Shown here one piece after another: positions 42,833 through 49,123 of a stretch of DNA of 64,000 nucleotides. A program made the position numbers and the translations under genes. Below the pieces are notes generated by a model. It saw nothing but the letters and a program-made list of their open reading frames with translations, did no database searches and had not been told where the DNA came from. The DNA is from Frigoribacterium endophyticum (lineage in GTDB: Bacteria > Actinomycetota > Actinomycetes > Actinomycetales > Microbacteriaceae), in assembly GCF_011759585.1 (NCBI RefSeq), contig NZ_JAAOYV010000002.1, forward strand, positions 62,001 to 126,000, read 5' to 3'. Within the stretch, counting starts at the first letter, position 1. Every line of letters starts with the position of its first letter.

Positions 42833-44029
42833 TCAGAGCTGACGCACCAGTGCCGGGATCCGTTCGCGGAACGGGAAGAAGCCGCGGGCGGCGTGGGGCC
42901 AGGCGGTGCCGTCCCACCGGCGGCGGACCGTCACGAGGGCGATGCCCTCGGCGTCGAGCACGGGGCGCAGCGCCTCCAGTCGCTCAGCGACGGGCCCGAC
43001 CGGGGCGAACGGCACGACGACCGTGTCGAGGCCCTCGGCCCGCGCCCAGCTCAGCACCGTCGCGGGCGCCGCGTCGGCGAGGACCCGGGCCCGGCGCCCG
43101 CTCGCGTCCGGCGTGCGCGCCGCGGCGTCGGCCACGGCCCCGGCCGTGAAGGCGGCGACGACGGGTGAGACCCCCGAGGGGGACCGCGCACCGGCGTCGG
43201 CGCTCACGGCCGTGGCCAGGAGCGTGTGGACGAGGTCGGGCCGCTCGGCGAGCAGGCTGCCGGCCTCGAGGTCCTCCTCGTGCAGCAGCAGTCCGACCCG
43301 GTCGCCGACCCGCCCCACGACGTCGTCCAAGTCGATGGGGGTCCGGGCTGGCAGCGCCTCCTCGTCGAGGGCGCGGGCCGTCGTGGCCAGGCCGGCCGGC
43401 GAGAAGCGGCCGTCGGTGAACCGCGAGATGTTCGAGGCCGTCGCGAGGTAGGTCTTGCCCCGCGTCTGCAGCCCGGCGACCCAGCGCCACGAGAGCGTGT
43501 TCGAGGCGGCGTCGCCGTCGAGCAGGTGCCGGTGGAAGAAGTCGGCGCCGAGCTGCCAGGGCAGGCCGAGCGTGAACACCCAGATGCTGGCGAACCACAT
43601 GCGCGTGTGGTTGTGGAGGTAGCCGGTGTCGACCAGCTCGCGCACCCAGGCGTCCATCGCCTCGATGCCCGACCGCCCCTCGACGGCGTCGTGGTGGCCC
43701 GGGGGGAGGTCGCCCGCCGTGAGCTCGGCGACGTCGTGACGGTACCGCCGCCAGACCTCGGGGTTCTGCTCCAGCCACCCCTTCCAGTACGTGCGCCAGA
43801 ACACCTCCTGGACGAACTTCTCGGCGGCCCCGAGGCTGGTGTGGGCCAGGACGGCCTCGACGACCTCCTGCTCGGTCACGAGGCGGTGGCGCAGGTACGG
43901 CGACAGCCCGGAGACGTTGCTCCGGGAGGGCCCGTCGTCGTGGTTGCGGTCTCGGGCGTAGGCGGCGCCGGCGCGGGGGACGAAGTCCTCCAGCGCGTCG
44001 AGGCCGGCGGCTCTGGTGGGGGTGGGCAC
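42833..44029 (-). CDS. Photolyase/cryptochrome-like protein with reversed domain order
   Basis: A 398-residue flavoprotein. Residues 1-250 match the helical FAD-binding domain of photolyases: SNVSGLSPYLRHRLVTEQEVV near residue 35, then FVQEVFWRTYWKGWLEQNPEVW, then DTGYLHNHTRMWFASIWVFTL, DGDAASNTLSWRWVAGLQ and NISRFTDGRF. In normal photolyases this domain follows an alpha/beta antenna domain. Here it comes first, and residues 255-398 are an alpha/beta region (VVVPFAPVGPVAERLEALRPVLDAEG, ending ARGFFPFRERIPALVRQL) that looks like a degenerate antenna domain moved to the C-terminus. Function (repair or light sensing) is unknown. GTG 44029 lies 6 nt after CATGAT. It is divergent from the Rho_N gene. 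Confidence 0.82.
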   Translation of the reverse strand: MPTPTRAAGLDALEDFVPRAGAAYARDRNHDDGPSRSNVSGLSPYLRHRLVTEQEVVEAVLAHTSLGAAEKFVQEVFWRTYWKGWLEQNPEVWRRYRHDVAELTAGDLPPGHHDAVEGRSGIEAMDAWVRELVDTGYLHNHTRMWFASIWVFTLGLPWQLGADFFHRHLLDGDAASNTLSWRWVAGLQTRGKTYLATASNISRFTDGRFSPAGLATTARALDEEALPARTPIDLDDVVGRVGDRVGLLLHEEDLEAGSLLAERPDLVHTLLATAVSADAGARSPSGVSPVVAAFTAGAVADAAARTPDASGRRARVLADAAPATVLSWARAEGLDTVVVPFAPVGPVAERLEALRPVLDAEGIALVTVRRRWDGTAWPHAARGFFPFRERIPALVRQL

Positions 44030-44408: not shown

Positions 44409-45422
44409 TCAGCTGGCCTCCTTCGTCGCCGCGGTCTTCTTCGCGGGATCCTTCTTCGCCGGAGCCTTCTTCGCTGGCTCCTTCTTCGCCGGCTCCTTCT
44501 TCGCGGGCGCCTTCTTCGCGGGCGCCTTCTTCGCGGCCGCCTTCTCGGCCGGGGCCTTCCCGCTCGCCGACCCCGCGCCTCCGGTGCGCTTCTTCGCGGG
44601 GGCGCGTGACGACCCGGCCGACCGGCTGCGCTCGACCGACTGGCGCAGCGCCTCCATGAGGTCGATGACCTCGCCGTCCGACCCGCCGTCGCCCTCGTCG
44701 TCGTCGTCCTCGCTGCGGCCGAAGGTCGCGTCGGTGTCGAGCGACTCGCCCTCCTCGAGCTTGGCGTCGATGAGCTTGCGCAGCTCCTCCTGGTAGTCGT
44801 CCTCGAACTGCGACGGGTCGAAGTCGTCGCCGAGCGACTCCACCAACGAGCCCGACATGTCGAGCTCCTTCGAGCTGATCCGCACCGTCTGGTCGAGCAC
44901 CGGGAAGCGCGCCTCGCGCACCTCGTCGTCCCAGAGCAGCGTCTGCAGCATCAGCACGTCGCCGCGCACCCGCAGGGCGGCGAGGCGGGTCTTCTGGCGC
45001 AGCGAGAAGTGCACGATCGCGGTGCGCTCGGTCTCCTCCAGCGTGCGCCGCAGCAGCACGTACGCCTTGGGCGACGACGAGTCCGGCTCGAGGAAGTAGC
45101 TGCGGTCGAACATGATCGGGTCGAGCTGGTCGCTCGGCACGAACTCGAGCACGTCGATCTCGCGCGAGCGCTCCTCGGGCAGCGACTTCAGGTCGTCCTC
45201 CGTCAGCACGACCGTGCGGTCGCCGTCGTCGAAGGCCTTGTCGATGTGCTCGTAGTCGACGACCTTGCCGCAGATCTCGCAGCGTCGCTGGTAGCGGATC
45301 CGCCCGCCGTCGGCGTCGTGCACCTGGTGCAGCGAGACGTCGTGGTCCTCCGTGGCGCTGTAGAGCTTCACGGGCACGTTGACGAGCCCGAACGTGATCG
45401 CGCCCTTCCAGATCGATCGCAT
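44409..45422 (-). CDS. ku: Non-homologous end-joining protein Ku
   Basis: A 337-residue bacterial Ku. MRSIWKGAITFGLVNVPVKLYSATEDHDVSLHQVH is the canonical start. The Ku core ring follows (RRCEICGKVVDYEHIDKAF, FDRSYFLEPD, AYVLLRRTLEET, LRQKTRLAALRVRGDVLMLQTLLW) and ends near residue 250. The C-terminus is a long basic tail built of AKKAPAKKEPAKK-type repeats, like the lysine-rich DNA-bridging tails of mycobacterial Ku. It should homodimerise on DNA ends and recruit LigD, encoded nearby on the other strand. CATGAT lies 6 nt before the ATG, so the mRNA is predicted leaderless. Confidence 0.95.
   Translation of the reverse strand: MRSIWKGAITFGLVNVPVKLYSATEDHDVSLHQVHDADGGRIRYQRRCEICGKVVDYEHIDKAFDDGDRTVVLTEDDLKSLPEERSREIDVLEFVPSDQLDPIMFDRSYFLEPDSSSPKAYVLLRRTLEETERTAIVHFSLRQKTRLAALRVRGDVLMLQTLLWDDEVREARFPVLDQTVRISSKELDMSGSLVESLGDDFDPSQFEDDYQEELRKLIDAKLEEGESLDTDATFGRSEDDDDEGDGGSDGEVIDLMEALRQSVERSRSAGSSRAPAKKRTGGAGSASGKAPAEKAAAKKAPAKKAPAKKEPAKKEPAKKAPAKKDPAKKTAATKEAS
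44421..44545 (-). repeat. Degenerate tandem repeat encoding the Ku lysine-rich tail
   Basis: Units of 15 bp, encoding APAKK/EPAKK, repeat about seven times within the ku 3' end. Such a stretch can vary in length by slippage. Confidence 0.8.
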
Positions 45423-45428
45423 GGGGTC

Positions 45429-45434
45429 ATCATG
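45429..45434 (-). promoter_or_regulatory. -10 box of leaderless ku
   Basis: CATGAT on the minus strand, 6 nt before the ATG at 45422; identical to the hexamer of the photolyase-like gene. Confidence 0.6.
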
Positions 45435-45445
45435 CCTCCGAACGC

Positions 45446-45469
45446 ACCCCGAACGACCGGGTTCGGGGT
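45446..45469. promoter_or_regulatory. 24-bp perfect palindrome in the ku/SDR divergent region
   Basis: ACCCCGAAC-N6-GTTCGGGGT, with arms 45446-45454 and 45461-45469. It sits 12 bp upstream of the ku -10 box and about 40 bp before the SDR start. A dimeric repressor or activator could control both genes. The CGAAC-N6-GTTCG core is like a LexA box but with two extra bases in the spacer. Confidence 0.55.
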
Positions 45470-45505
45470 ACAACGGCCGAGCACGGGGAGGCGCGCGGGA
45501 GCACG

Positions 45506-46402
45506 GTGGACCGCATGAGCCAGTACGACAAGAAGGACCCCGTCGACCTCTACCCCGTCCCGCCCTTCCCCGAGCAGGAGCAGTCGCTGCCGGGCGAGGC
45601 GCGGCGGATGGACCCGAAGCCCGACCACGGCGAGACCAGCTACGTCGGCAAGGAGCGCCTCACCGGCTACCGCGGCGTCGTCACCGGCGCCGACTCGGGC
45701 ATCGGCCGCGCCGCCGCCATCGCGCTCAGCCGCGAGGGCGCCGACCTCGTGCTCAGCTACCTGCCCGACGAGCAGGCCGACGCCGAGGAGGTGCGCGACC
45801 TGCTCGAGGGCGAGGGCCGGAAGGCCGTGCTCTTCCCCGGCGACATCAGCGACGAGCAGTACTGCCACGACCTCGTGTCGAAGGCCGTCGAGGAGCTCGG
45901 CGGCCTCGACACGCTCGTGATGGTGGCCGGCCACCAGGAGAGCCACGAAGACATCCTCGAGATGACGACCGAGGGCATCGACCAGACGATCAAGACCAAC
46001 GTCTACTCGCTCTTCTGGCTGACGCAGGCGGCGCTGCCGCACCTCGAGCCCGGCTCGGCGATCGTCACCACCGGGTCGATCCAGGGCACGCAGCCCTCCC
46101 CCGACAAGCTCGACTACGCCCTGACCAAGGGCGCCATCGGCGTGTTCACGGCGGGCCTCGCCCAGCAGCTCGCGCCGAAGGGCATCCGCGTCAACCAGGT
46201 CTCGCCCGGCCCGATCTGGACCCCGCTGCAGCCCGCCTCGCAGGACGGCGAGACCGTCTCCGAGTTCGGCATGCAGGCCCCGTACGGCCGCCCCGGCCAG
46301 CCCGCCGAGCTCGGTGCGGCGTACGTGCACCTCGTCAGCCCCGAGTCGAGCTACACGAGCGGCGCCACGATCACGATCGCGGGCGGCACCCCGGCCGTCT
46401 GA
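45506..46402 (+). CDS. Short-chain dehydrogenase (YhdF/GSP39-like stress SDR)
   Basis: A 298-residue NAD(P)-dependent SDR. A proline-rich leader (DPVDLYPVPPFPEQEQSLPGEARRMDPKPDHGE) precedes the fold, as in the general-stress-protein-39/YhdF group. The nucleotide motif is GADSGIGRAAA, the catalytic Ser lies in VTTGSIQG and the YxxxK pair in LDYALTKGA. PGPIWTPLQPA is typical. These enzymes are induced by salt, ethanol or desiccation in other bacteria; substrates are poorly known. Placement between ku and ligD is unusual. GTG 45506 and ATG 45515 are both possible starts; I give the longer form, with GGGAG five bases upstream. A 13-bp hairpin follows. Confidence 0.9.
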   Translation: MDRMSQYDKKDPVDLYPVPPFPEQEQSLPGEARRMDPKPDHGETSYVGKERLTGYRGVVTGADSGIGRAAAIALSREGADLVLSYLPDEQADAEEVRDLLEGEGRKAVLFPGDISDEQYCHDLVSKAVEELGGLDTLVMVAGHQESHEDILEMTTEGIDQTIKTNVYSLFWLTQAALPHLEPGSAIVTTGSIQGTQPSPDKLDYALTKGAIGVFTAGLAQQLAPKGIRVNQVSPGPIWTPLQPASQDGETVSEFGMQAPYGRPGQPAELGAAYVHLVSPESSYTSGATITIAGGTPAV

Positions 46403-46422
46403 CCGGCACCGCGCCTCCTGCC

Positions 46423-46453
46423 GGCCCGCCGTCCGCCCGTCGGACGGCGGGCC
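46423..46453 (+). terminator. Hairpin terminator after the SDR gene
   Basis: Perfect 13-bp arms GGCCCGCCGTCCG and CGGACGGCGGGCC around CCCGT. Confidence 0.85.
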
Positions 46454-46525
46454 GCTCCGTGCCCGACGCGGCGCGGAACGGGTAGAACGAGACCACCAGC
46501 CACGGACGACACGAGGAGGCGCGCC

Positions 46526-49123
46526 ATGGGCCCGAAGGGACGCGGCGAGCGCGTGCAGGTCGGCGGCCACACGCTGCAGCTCACCAACCTCGACAAGGTC
46601 CTGTACCCGGCCACGGGCACGACCAAGGGAGACGTGCTCGGCTACTACGCCGCCGTCGCCGAGTGGATGCTGCCGCACGTCGAGGGCCGCCCGGCCACCC
46701 GCAAGCGCTGGGTGAACGGCGTCGACGGCCAGGTGTTCTTCGAGAAGAACCTGCCCGACTCGGCGCCGGAGTGGGTGGCGCGCCACGAGATCCAGCACAG
46801 CGACCACGCCAACACGTACCCGCTCGTCAACGACCTCGCGACGCTGACCTGGCTCGGCCAGGTCGCCGCGCTCGAGGTGCACGTGCCGCAGTGGCGCTTC
46901 GGCCCGCGCGGCGCGCAGCGGAACCCCGACCGGCTCGTGCTCGACCTCGACCCGGGCGAGGGCGTCGGCCTCGCCGAGTGCGTCGAGGTCGCGCAGCTGC
47001 TGCGGCCGCTCCTCGAGGGCATGGGCCTCGAGCTCGTGCCGGTCACGAGCGGCAGCAAGGGCGTCCACCTCTACGCGCGGCTCGACGGCGGGCAGACGAG
47101 CGCCCAGGTCAGCGACGTCGCCCACGAGCTCGCCCGGGCCGTCGAGGCCGACCACCCCGACCTCGTGATCAGCACGATGGGCAAGGCCGACCGCCGCGGC
47201 AAGGTGCTGCTCGACTGGTCGCAGAACAACGGGAACAAGACCACCGTCGCGCCGTACTCGCTGCGCGGGCGCGAGCGGCCGACGGTCGCGACGCCGCGCA
47301 CCTGGCGCGAGCTGGCGTCGAGGCAGCTGGGGCAGCTGGAGTACCCCGAGGTGCTGGCGCGCCTGCGGCGACGCGGCGACCCGTTGGCCGACGTGTCGAG
47401 CGGCACGCCCGTGCCGCCGGGTGAGCTCGGCGACGACATGCGCAACACCGAGTCGCCGGAGCACGATCCGTCGGGCGACGGCGAGACCCGCCAGCGCCGC
47501 GACAGGCTCGCGACGTACCGCTCCATGCGCGACCCCGCCAAGACGCGCGAGCCCGTGCCCGCCGAGGCGCCGCCGACGAGCGACGGCCGCAGCTTCGTCA
47601 TCCAGGAGCACCACGCGAGCCGCCTGCACTGGGACTTCCGCCTCGAGCACGACGGCGTGCTGGTCAGCTGGGCGCTGCCGAAGGGCGAGCCCGACGACCC
47701 CGGCCAGAACCACCTCGCCGTCCAGACCGAGGACCACCCGCTCGAGTACGGCACCTTCGAGGGCACGATCGCGAAGGGCGAGTACGGCGCGGGCGAGGTC
47801 ACCATCTGGGACTCCGGCACGTACGAGCTCGAGAAGTGGCGGGAGGGCGAGGAGGTCATCGCGGTGCTGCACGGCGAGCAGCGCGGCAGCCGGCGGGTCG
47901 CCCTCATCCACACCGGGCACGGCGGCGGGTCGTCGGAGAAGAACTGGCTGATCCACCGCATGGCCGACGACGCGGGACGCGCGGGCGCCGACGGGCACGG
48001 CGGTCACGGCGGCCACGGCGGCCACGGCTCGACGGGGGCCGCCGCAGGGAAGAAGAAGAAGGGCCGGACGGTGATCGGCTCGGGGGCCGGCAGCGGGGCC
48101 GCCCGCTCGACCCGCGACTCCTCGGGGTCGTCGCCGTCGTCGAGCGGCCGCGGCGACGCGGGCGACCTCGAGCCCGTCTCCCCCATGCTCGCCGTCGCCG
48201 GCACCGCGGCCGACGTCGACGACGACTGGGCCTACGAGATGAAGTGGGACGGCATCCGCGCGGTCGCCGTCGTCCAGGGCGACCGCGTCACCCTGACCAG
48301 CCGCAACGGCCACGACCTGACGCCCGCCTACCCCGAGCTGCAGGCGCTCGCAGGCCTCGTCGACAGCGAGGGAGGCGCGGTGCTCGACGGCGAGGTCGTG
48401 GCCGTCGACGAGACCGGTCGCCCCGACTTCGGCCTGCTGCAGACGCGGATGGGCCTGACGAAGCCCCGCGAGGTGGAGGCCGCGGCGAAGGGCGCGCCCG
48501 TGCGGTACCTGCTCTTCGACGTGCTGCACGCCGAGGGCAGGTCGCTCGTGCGACGCACGTACGACGAGCGCCGCGAGGTGCTCGAGCGCGTGGTGCGGCC
48601 GGAGGGCGCGGTCGACGTGCCGGTCGTCTTCGACGGCGACCTGGAGGCGGCGATGCGGACGTCGCAGCGCCTCCGGCTGGAGGGGGTCGTGGCGAAGCGC
48701 CGCGACGCGGCCTACAGCCCCGGCCGGCGCTCGCGGGCCTGGATCAAGATGAAGCACCACGCGACCCAGGAGGTGGTGATCGCCGGGTGGCGGCCCGGCA
48801 ACGGTCGCCGCGCCTCCGGGGTGGGCTCGCTGCTGATGGGCGTGCCGGGCGACGACGGGCTGACGTACGTCGGGCGCGTCGGCACCGGGTTCCGCGACCG
48901 CGACCTCGACGAGCTGCTCACCGAGTTCCGCCGCGTCGAGAGGAAGACCAGCCCGCTCGTCGACGTGCCGGCGGCCGACGCCCGCGACGCGCACTGGATC
49001 ACGCCGTCGCGCGTCGGCGAGGTGTCGTTCGCGGAGTGGACCTCGACCGGGCGGCTGCGGCAGCCGTCGTGGCGCGGCTGGCGACCCGACAAGTCGCCGG
49101 GCGACGTGGTGCGCGAGAGCTGA
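46526..49123 (+). CDS. ligD: Multifunctional ATP-dependent DNA ligase LigD (Pol-PE-Lig)
   Basis: An 865-residue NHEJ enzyme with three domains in the mycobacterial order. The primase-like polymerase (1-300) has the metal pair in VLDLDPGEG at residues 139-147, SGSKGVHLY, and the third Asp of LLDWSQNN. The 3'-phosphoesterase (about 335-480) has FVIQEHHASRLHWDFRLEHDG and ENHLA-like NHLAVQTEDHPLEYGTFEG with catalytic His residues. The ATP-dependent ligase (540-865) has the adenylated Lys573 in EMKWDGIRA and the C-terminal OB-fold. A GHGGHGGHGGHG linker lies near residue 490, followed by a KKKKG and Ser-rich spacer. SD GGAGG is 5 nt from the ATG, inside the recurrent GGAGGCGCG 9-mer. Confidence 0.95.
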   Translation: MGPKGRGERVQVGGHTLQLTNLDKVLYPATGTTKGDVLGYYAAVAEWMLPHVEGRPATRKRWVNGVDGQVFFEKNLPDSAPEWVARHEIQHSDHANTYPLVNDLATLTWLGQVAALEVHVPQWRFGPRGAQRNPDRLVLDLDPGEGVGLAECVEVAQLLRPLLEGMGLELVPVTSGSKGVHLYARLDGGQTSAQVSDVAHELARAVEADHPDLVISTMGKADRRGKVLLDWSQNNGNKTTVAPYSLRGRERPTVATPRTWRELASRQLGQLEYPEVLARLRRRGDPLADVSSGTPVPPGELGDDMRNTESPEHDPSGDGETRQRRDRLATYRSMRDPAKTREPVPAEAPPTSDGRSFVIQEHHASRLHWDFRLEHDGVLVSWALPKGEPDDPGQNHLAVQTEDHPLEYGTFEGTIAKGEYGAGEVTIWDSGTYELEKWREGEEVIAVLHGEQRGSRRVALIHTGHGGGSSEKNWLIHRMADDAGRAGADGHGGHGGHGGHGSTGAAAGKKKKGRTVIGSGAGSGAARSTRDSSGSSPSSSGRGDAGDLEPVSPMLAVAGTAADVDDDWAYEMKWDGIRAVAVVQGDRVTLTSRNGHDLTPAYPELQALAGLVDSEGGAVLDGEVVAVDETGRPDFGLLQTRMGLTKPREVEAAAKGAPVRYLLFDVLHAEGRSLVRRTYDERREVLERVVRPEGAVDVPVVFDGDLEAAMRTSQRLRLEGVVAKRRDAAYSPGRRSRAWIKMKHHATQEVVIAGWRPGNGRRASGVGSLLMGVPGDDGLTYVGRVGTGFRDRDLDELLTEFRRVERKTSPLVDVPAADARDAHWITPSRVGEVSFAEWTSTGRLRQPSWRGWRPDKSPGDVVRES

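Follow-up and report, generated by a model that had tools for sequence, protein, structure and literature searches.

The window, that is, the whole stretch of 64,000 nucleotides of Frigoribacterium endophyticum DNA that we analysed, carries on its minus strand a gene (42833..44029) that very probably encodes a NewPHL-type photolyase, with an N-terminal FAD/catalytic domain followed by a C-terminal α/β domain; this class is assigned by the features of the protein and by the orders of the hosts of its relatives. The initial annotation of the DNA recognized the unusual order and suggested something new, that is, a light sensor or a repair enzyme without the usual antenna; however, passages of PMC13274461 and PMC9426592 trace this topology to a 2020 description under the name NewPHL, and the published class repairs cyclobutane pyrimidine dimers (CPDs) in single-stranded DNA. 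The reversed domain order of the window protein is real, not chance, yet already known, and the gene looks like one more NewPHL member.

Domain order, relatives and genome context

The initial annotation gave the correct coordinates and named no strand. The minus-strand gene is translated from a GTG start into 398 residues, with the stop codon at 42833-42835, and the motifs originally quoted (SNVSGLSPYL, TGYLHNHTRMW, DGDAASNTLSWRWVAG and FFPFRERIP) are all present in this translation. In the alignment described below, the start codon occupies the same column in 27/27 rows of the clade that contains the window protein, so a longer frame that opens with TTG and extends to 44209 is not needed. 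The N-terminal FAD/catalytic domain (residues 1-213; 43391..44029, minus strand) is delimited by Pfam, by phmmer (to 1dnp) and by the structural model: FAD_binding_7 matches residues 72-195 (E 3.5e-22), and a phmmer search of the PDB aligns residues 10-195 with residues 208-396 of E. coli photolyase and also with the corresponding regions of further photolyases and cryptochromes; therefore, the protein opens with its FAD domain, as had been proposed, and this domain is ~213 residues long instead of the 250 first estimated. A linker (residues 214-235; 43325..43390, minus strand) that lacks secondary structure in the AlphaFold2 model leads to the C-terminal α/β domain (residues 236-398; 42836..43324, minus strand), which has an antenna-like fold and occupies the position of the published 'Z-domain'. 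The photolyase models in NCBIfam match the protein far below their cut-offs, and none of the listed PDB matches, whether by sequence or by structure, is a FAD-first entry.

Purifying selection acts on both halves of the protein: dN/dS against seven orthologs lies at 0.23-0.33 in the first half (residues 2-213) and at 0.24-0.39 in the second (residues 214-398). The Pfam antenna domain, PF00875, is absent from the window protein. Its single match genome-wide lies within another gene, on contig C1, that encodes a classical photolyase of 459 residues (PF00875 at 6-170, PF03441 at 274-426); this is the one full-length classical photolyase in the genome, and the two PF03441 matches in the genome are its gene and the window gene. 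The PF00875 search therefore found no missing N-terminal antenna domain encoded upstream, the circumstance that the initial annotation had named as fatal to its reading.

Homologs with the same reversed order had been proposed as a further check. Full-length homologs that share the FAD-first order were found in the best 80 loci from a scan of genome contigs (at least 594 stretches, at least 589 of them encoding relatives) and, within a relatives set of 60 genomes that includes the window genome, in 12 of the other 59. Counted with its own genome, the protein has full-length relatives in 13/60: its own, 10/15 from the same genus, 2/21 from the same family and 0/23 from the same order. The remaining matches in this set (E 2e-22 to 1e-13) span the FAD part, except for one (in G024) that covers residues 9-311 and contains an internal stop. 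When 296 genomes sampled from the phylum were searched at E ≤1e-25, the window genome, which is one of them, gave the only full-length match; four others match over ~200 residues. Eight plasmid records contain relatives of the window type, as read from the identities, and three of these match over 99% of the query; the two plasmid relatives that we inspected (Ruegeria TM1040 and Asticcacaulis) both have the FAD domain first.

The hosts of the best 80 loci include Frigoribacterium, Curtobacterium, Rathayibacter, Cryobacterium, Lacisediminihabitans and numerous Rhodobacteraceae/Roseobacteraceae, along with Sphingomonadales, Rhodospirillales, Hyphomicrobiales and further groups, five Gammaproteobacteria and one bin labelled cyanobacterium. 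We aligned these 80 loci with the 13 loci of the relatives set to obtain 93 rows (90 distinct, window gene included; the three identical pairs seem to stem from genomes present in both collections), and every row is a complete ORF of 384-427 residues with the same domain order. The nearest named relatives, from Frigoribacterium, share 80% identity with the window protein; 64 relatives outside the window's Microbacteriaceae clade and two Microbacteriaceae bins share 44-56%. In an unrooted tree, one clade (branch value 100) amid mostly alphaproteobacterial rows unites 27 rows, of which 14 are named Microbacteriaceae and 13 belong to the window's family, and three actinobacterial rows form a separate clade (99); transfer between phyla is possible.

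In Frigoribacterium sp. CG_9.8 (G366; loci L044/L048), PF03441 matches four times: once in a classical photolyase, twice in NewPHL-like proteins that share 71% and 72% identity with the window protein, and once weakly, at C1:970598-970930 (40.5 bits). In Ruegeria arenilitoris and Silicibacter lacuscaerulensis (L069, L082), the NewPHL-like gene adjoins another photolyase gene (G352:C12:166394-167941 and G353:C1:465602-468995, respectively); in the latter, a third, weak PF03441 match accompanies the pair.

The window gene is flanked by genes for a phosphoketolase and a DUF7218/Rho_N protein, and Ku, SDR and LigD lie further out; in the interval 44409-49123, the SDR near the photolyase stands between the end-joining repair proteins Ku and LigD, the latter with polymerase, phosphoesterase and ligase domains. 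A repair island, suggested by the Ku/LigD neighbors, was considered and rejected: Ku, LigD and the phosphoketolase have no match in the best 80 loci (flanks up to 5 kb, some shorter), so the adjacency is not conserved there; the SDR is matched at 27-35% identity in 7 of these loci. PADLOC assigned no family to the window gene.

Fold and sequence kinship of the C-terminal domain

The full-length AlphaFold2 model, built on 75 rows (pLDDT 96.5, pTM 0.93), contains helices without strands up to residue 204, then the linker, and strands and helices in alternation in residues 245-397. Photolyases align with this model over only 207-244 columns (TMq up to 0.44 among the 50 listed matches), which fits the FAD half; swapped domains are beyond the reach of a sequential aligner. 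Among the PDB matches listed, no solved structure matches the whole protein. A library of viral structures yielded three matches at E ≤0.001 (TMq 0.34-0.39), and the two that are named are photolyases.

The initial annotation also called for structure prediction and fold comparison of the last domain. When residues 236-398 are modelled alone with 77 rows (pLDDT 95.0, pTM 0.89) and compared with the PDB using Foldseek, ranks 1-4 are photolyase/cryptochrome chains (3umv A, 3umv B, 6lz7 and 8zlr; E 2.0e-3 to 4.7e-3, TMq 0.48-0.59), with no PDB match at E ≤0.001; other cryptochromes reach TMq 0.61 (6fn3). These matches presumably fall in the antenna domains of their targets. The list also includes phosphopantetheine adenylyltransferases and universal stress proteins (TMq ~0.4-0.5), which have HUP-type folds, as do antenna domains; unlike folds (OMP decarboxylase, tryptophan synthase alpha) have TMq <0.3. 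The antenna-like character claimed for the last domain is thus upheld at the level of the fold, and the sequence kinship is weak: in hhalign, the domain aligns colinearly with 44 classical-photolyase antenna domains over 71 columns (14%, E 0.002; reversed decoys, 0.2%), and PF00875 touches 1/77 C-terminal domains (E 0.01), fewer than does the unrelated BLH_phosphatase family (6/77).

Two other matches were taken as general likeness among α/β domains and set aside: PF04273 (BLH_phosphatase) at residues 321-365 (E 0.022, short of its cut-off), a family that touches 6/77 C-terminal domains with a best E of 0.0069, and BdcA, matched by the C-terminal profile at E 0.003 over 60 columns. The best-conserved stretch of the domain in the 93-row alignment is residues 370-385 (42875..42922, minus strand); the C-terminal residues kept in at least 95% of the rows are D253, P343, G345, R370, D373, W377, P378, A380, G383 and F385.

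Catalytic residues and assignment to a class

Residues of the window protein were mapped to E. coli photolyase using the phmmer alignment and counted on the 93 rows (90 distinct). Identical in 93/93 rows are Y24 (E. coli Y222), E75 (E274), W78 (W277), R79 (R278), N140 (N341), R143 (R344), M144 (M345), D171 (D372), D173 (D374), N177 (N378), W181 (W382) and W183 (W384); N177 corresponds to the asparagine at FAD N5. The CPD-type catalytic positions E75, W78, R79, N140, M144 and W183 are therefore intact, and Asn and Met at E. coli positions 341 and 345 point to CPD rather than (6-4) lesions. E. coli W271 and W338 are not kept (F72 and Y137 are in their place), nor is the segment 234-238 as such, in a stretch that is poorly aligned. 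The window protein contains no cysteine.

The first Trp of the electron-transfer chain, E. coli W382, is W181 (43487..43489, minus strand), a Trp in 93/93 rows, and the second, W359, is W158 (43556..43558, minus strand), a Trp in 92/93. The column of E. coli W306 holds G106 in the window protein and a Trp in 0/93 rows; residues 100-112 of the window protein include no Trp, in a region where the alignment is loose. Trp occurs in the column of H112 in 24/93 relatives and in four nearby columns in a few. By sequence, then, the protein has a Trp dyad (W181 and W158) without a counterpart of W306, the alignment there being loose.

These features agree with the published descriptions of NewPHLs. In the passages that describe them, NewPHLs or SPLs have an inverted topology and repair CPDs in single-stranded DNA (PMC13274461), the D. 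shibae NewPHL uses a Trp dyad instead of a triad or tetrad (PMC8948257), the asparagine that faces FAD N5 is conserved in NewPHL (PMC12083526), and Phr7 of Prochlorococcus consists of a FAD domain and then a Z-domain (PMC9426592). The window protein has the FAD-first order in one gene, no Fe-S cysteines, the N5 asparagine and the Trp dyad; also, the orders of its relatives include those of the four NewPHL species that PMC13274461 names with accessions (A8LJA9, M7YZC8, Q2N8F4 and B6IPR5), that is, Rhodobacterales, Hyphomicrobiales, Sphingomonadales and Rhodospirillales.

A second group of proteins has the FAD domain first together with Fe-S cysteines: this inverted order with cysteines is described for Phr4/5/6 (passages of PMC9426592), and SPL photolyases are treated in PMC9649867 and PMC9178010. 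A Deinococcus plasmid encodes such a protein (L119:2887-4254, plus strand, 456 residues), in which PF00875 matches residues 300-395 (E 7e-4, short of its cut-off). When used as the query against the 296 phylum genomes, it matched 15 at E ≤1e-30, one match being the window gene; 11 of the 14 others (L158-L166, L168, L169) and the Deinococcus protein make up our SPL-like set. All 12 proteins have a Cys set spaced by 84-85, 3 and 6-7 residues, compared with the published 85, 3 and 6 of RS9916 Phr4 (PMC9426592). In a joint alignment, three of the four Cys columns hold in 12/12 and the fourth is split by one residue (1/12); at least three of the four columns are occupied by Cys in 0/93 NewPHL-like rows, as against the set in 12/12 SPL-like proteins. 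In 31/93 NewPHL-like rows a Cys occupies the position of the first Fe-S cysteine (the column of C155 in L119), possibly the trace of a lost cluster.

The SPL-like C-terminal domains align with classical antenna domains in hhalign at 96.5% (E 8e-10; decoys <0.6%); when compared alone, window-type and SPL-like C-terminal domains reach 0.5%, no better than decoys. The whole proteins of the two types align colinearly at 99.9%, to which the FAD half may be the main contributor. In a quick, unrooted tree of 84 FAD domains (28 of the 93 NewPHL-like rows, 12 SPL-like and 44 classical), for which the program warned of the long row L119 and of long branches meeting, the 28 NewPHL-like rows lie on one side (99), the 12 SPL-like rows form a branch (90), and both are separated from the classical rows (99); a single origin of the inverted order would fit this tree.

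Membership of the window protein in the Fe-S group itself is very unlikely: the two share the domain order and are joined against the 44 classical rows, but the window protein has no cysteine, and the NewPHL-like and SPL-like rows occupy separate branches. Equally hard to credit is a front-truncated or misassembled classical photolyase followed by an unrelated Rossmann-type domain. The weak or absent sequence matches between the C-terminal domain and antenna domains speak for it; against it stand the full-length relatives in 12/59 other genomes and the best 80 loci, the purifying selection on both halves, and the fold search with the C-terminal domain, in which photolyases and cryptochromes rank highest. 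The part of this explanation that invokes an assembly artefact is refuted, because independent genomes hold full-length relatives.

Two further readings are improbable, though less so than these. The protein could be an inverted cryptochrome-like photoreceptor in which repair has been lost and the C-terminal domain serves for signalling; its FAD-site residues are intact, its domain order is unusual, and a few residues can be all that separates a cryptochrome from a photolyase, but the CPD-contacting positions E75, W78, N140, M144 and W183 are kept in 93/93 rows and repair of CPDs is the published activity of NewPHL. We give a similarly small chance to the C-terminal domain being a displaced, working antenna, with a second chromophore that passes light to FAD from the opposite end of the chain and with NewPHL and the Fe-S FAD-first group derived from one permuted or domain-swapped ancestor. 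The phylum of the window protein makes F420-type deazaflavins; if this reading were true, the inverted class would not be antenna-free.

Proposed function and comparison with known photolyases

The preferred reading, judged from the sequence, is that the window protein is probably a CPD photolyase for single-stranded DNA that lacks a working antenna and acts beside the classical photolyase of the genome. Blue/UV-A light would excite the reduced FAD directly, an electron from the excited FAD would split the cyclobutane pyrimidine dimer, and the two-Trp chain (W181 and W158) would re-reduce the flavin. The C-terminal domain has a conserved W377-P378-x-A-x-x-G-F-F tail and probably lacks a working antenna pigment; it may close the FAD site, a role played in classical photolyases by C-terminal helices. 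By analogy with the published class, dimers in single-stranded DNA are the probable substrate; we infer the repair activity, this preference, the pigment content and the sealing role.

Emmerich and co-workers described NewPHL in 2020 (Nucleic Acids Res 48:12845); in that work the C-terminal domain reportedly seals the FAD site and NewPHL reportedly substitutes for DASH photolyases. The window enzyme might likewise complement the classical photolyase and stand in for a DASH enzyme. In 16 genomes of relatives, chosen for holding the gene, the DASH profile (TIGR02765) is matched over its cut-off in 0/16, compared with 1/14 control genomes; each of the 16 has at least one photolyase of classical order that matches along the whole DASH profile. 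These 16 genomes contain 17 PF03441 matches of the NewPHL-like kind (68-91 bits) and two weaker, unassigned ones. The lack of a DASH match over the cut-off in these gene-holding genomes agrees with the published idea that NewPHL replaces DASH.

These results locate inverted photolyases in a branch of the Microbacteriaceae, alongside a classical enzyme, and the FAD-domain tree links them to the Fe-S FAD-first proteins. Because none of the listed matches is a solved structure that covers the whole protein, this actinobacterial member, for which the model is confident, is a reasonable target for establishing the function of the C-terminal domain and whether the inversion has a single origin. Our literature search for an actinobacterial NewPHL found no report; we make no claim that none exists.

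The FAD-domain residues of the window protein are like those of class I CPD photolyases (E. coli, A. nidulans) and of the 459-residue paralog in the same genome. In class I enzymes the antenna domain comes first, whereas the window protein lacks an N-terminal PF00875; the E. coli enzyme also has a third Trp (W306) and C-terminal helices. The domain order of DASH photolyases is classical, in contrast to the inverted order of the window protein, which scores 62.7 bits on TIGR02765 against a cut-off of 317.05; passages of PMC9649867 describe repair of single-stranded DNA by DASH photolyases. With SPL, Phr4+Phr5 and Phr6, the window protein shares the inverted order and a grouping in the FAD-domain tree; however, the SPL-like proteins have Fe-S cysteines and an antenna-homologous C-terminal domain, and the window protein has no cysteine and a weak antenna likeness by profile. 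With the NewPHLs (Dinoroseobacter shibae, Methylobacterium mesophilicum, Prochlorococcus Phr7) it has in common the N-terminal FAD domain and C-terminal 'Z-domain', the absence of Fe-S cysteines, the Trp dyad, the N5 asparagine and relatives from the same orders; it differs from the published members in being of the Microbacteriaceae type, with its nearest named relatives in Frigoribacterium, and in that its activity is a predicted one.
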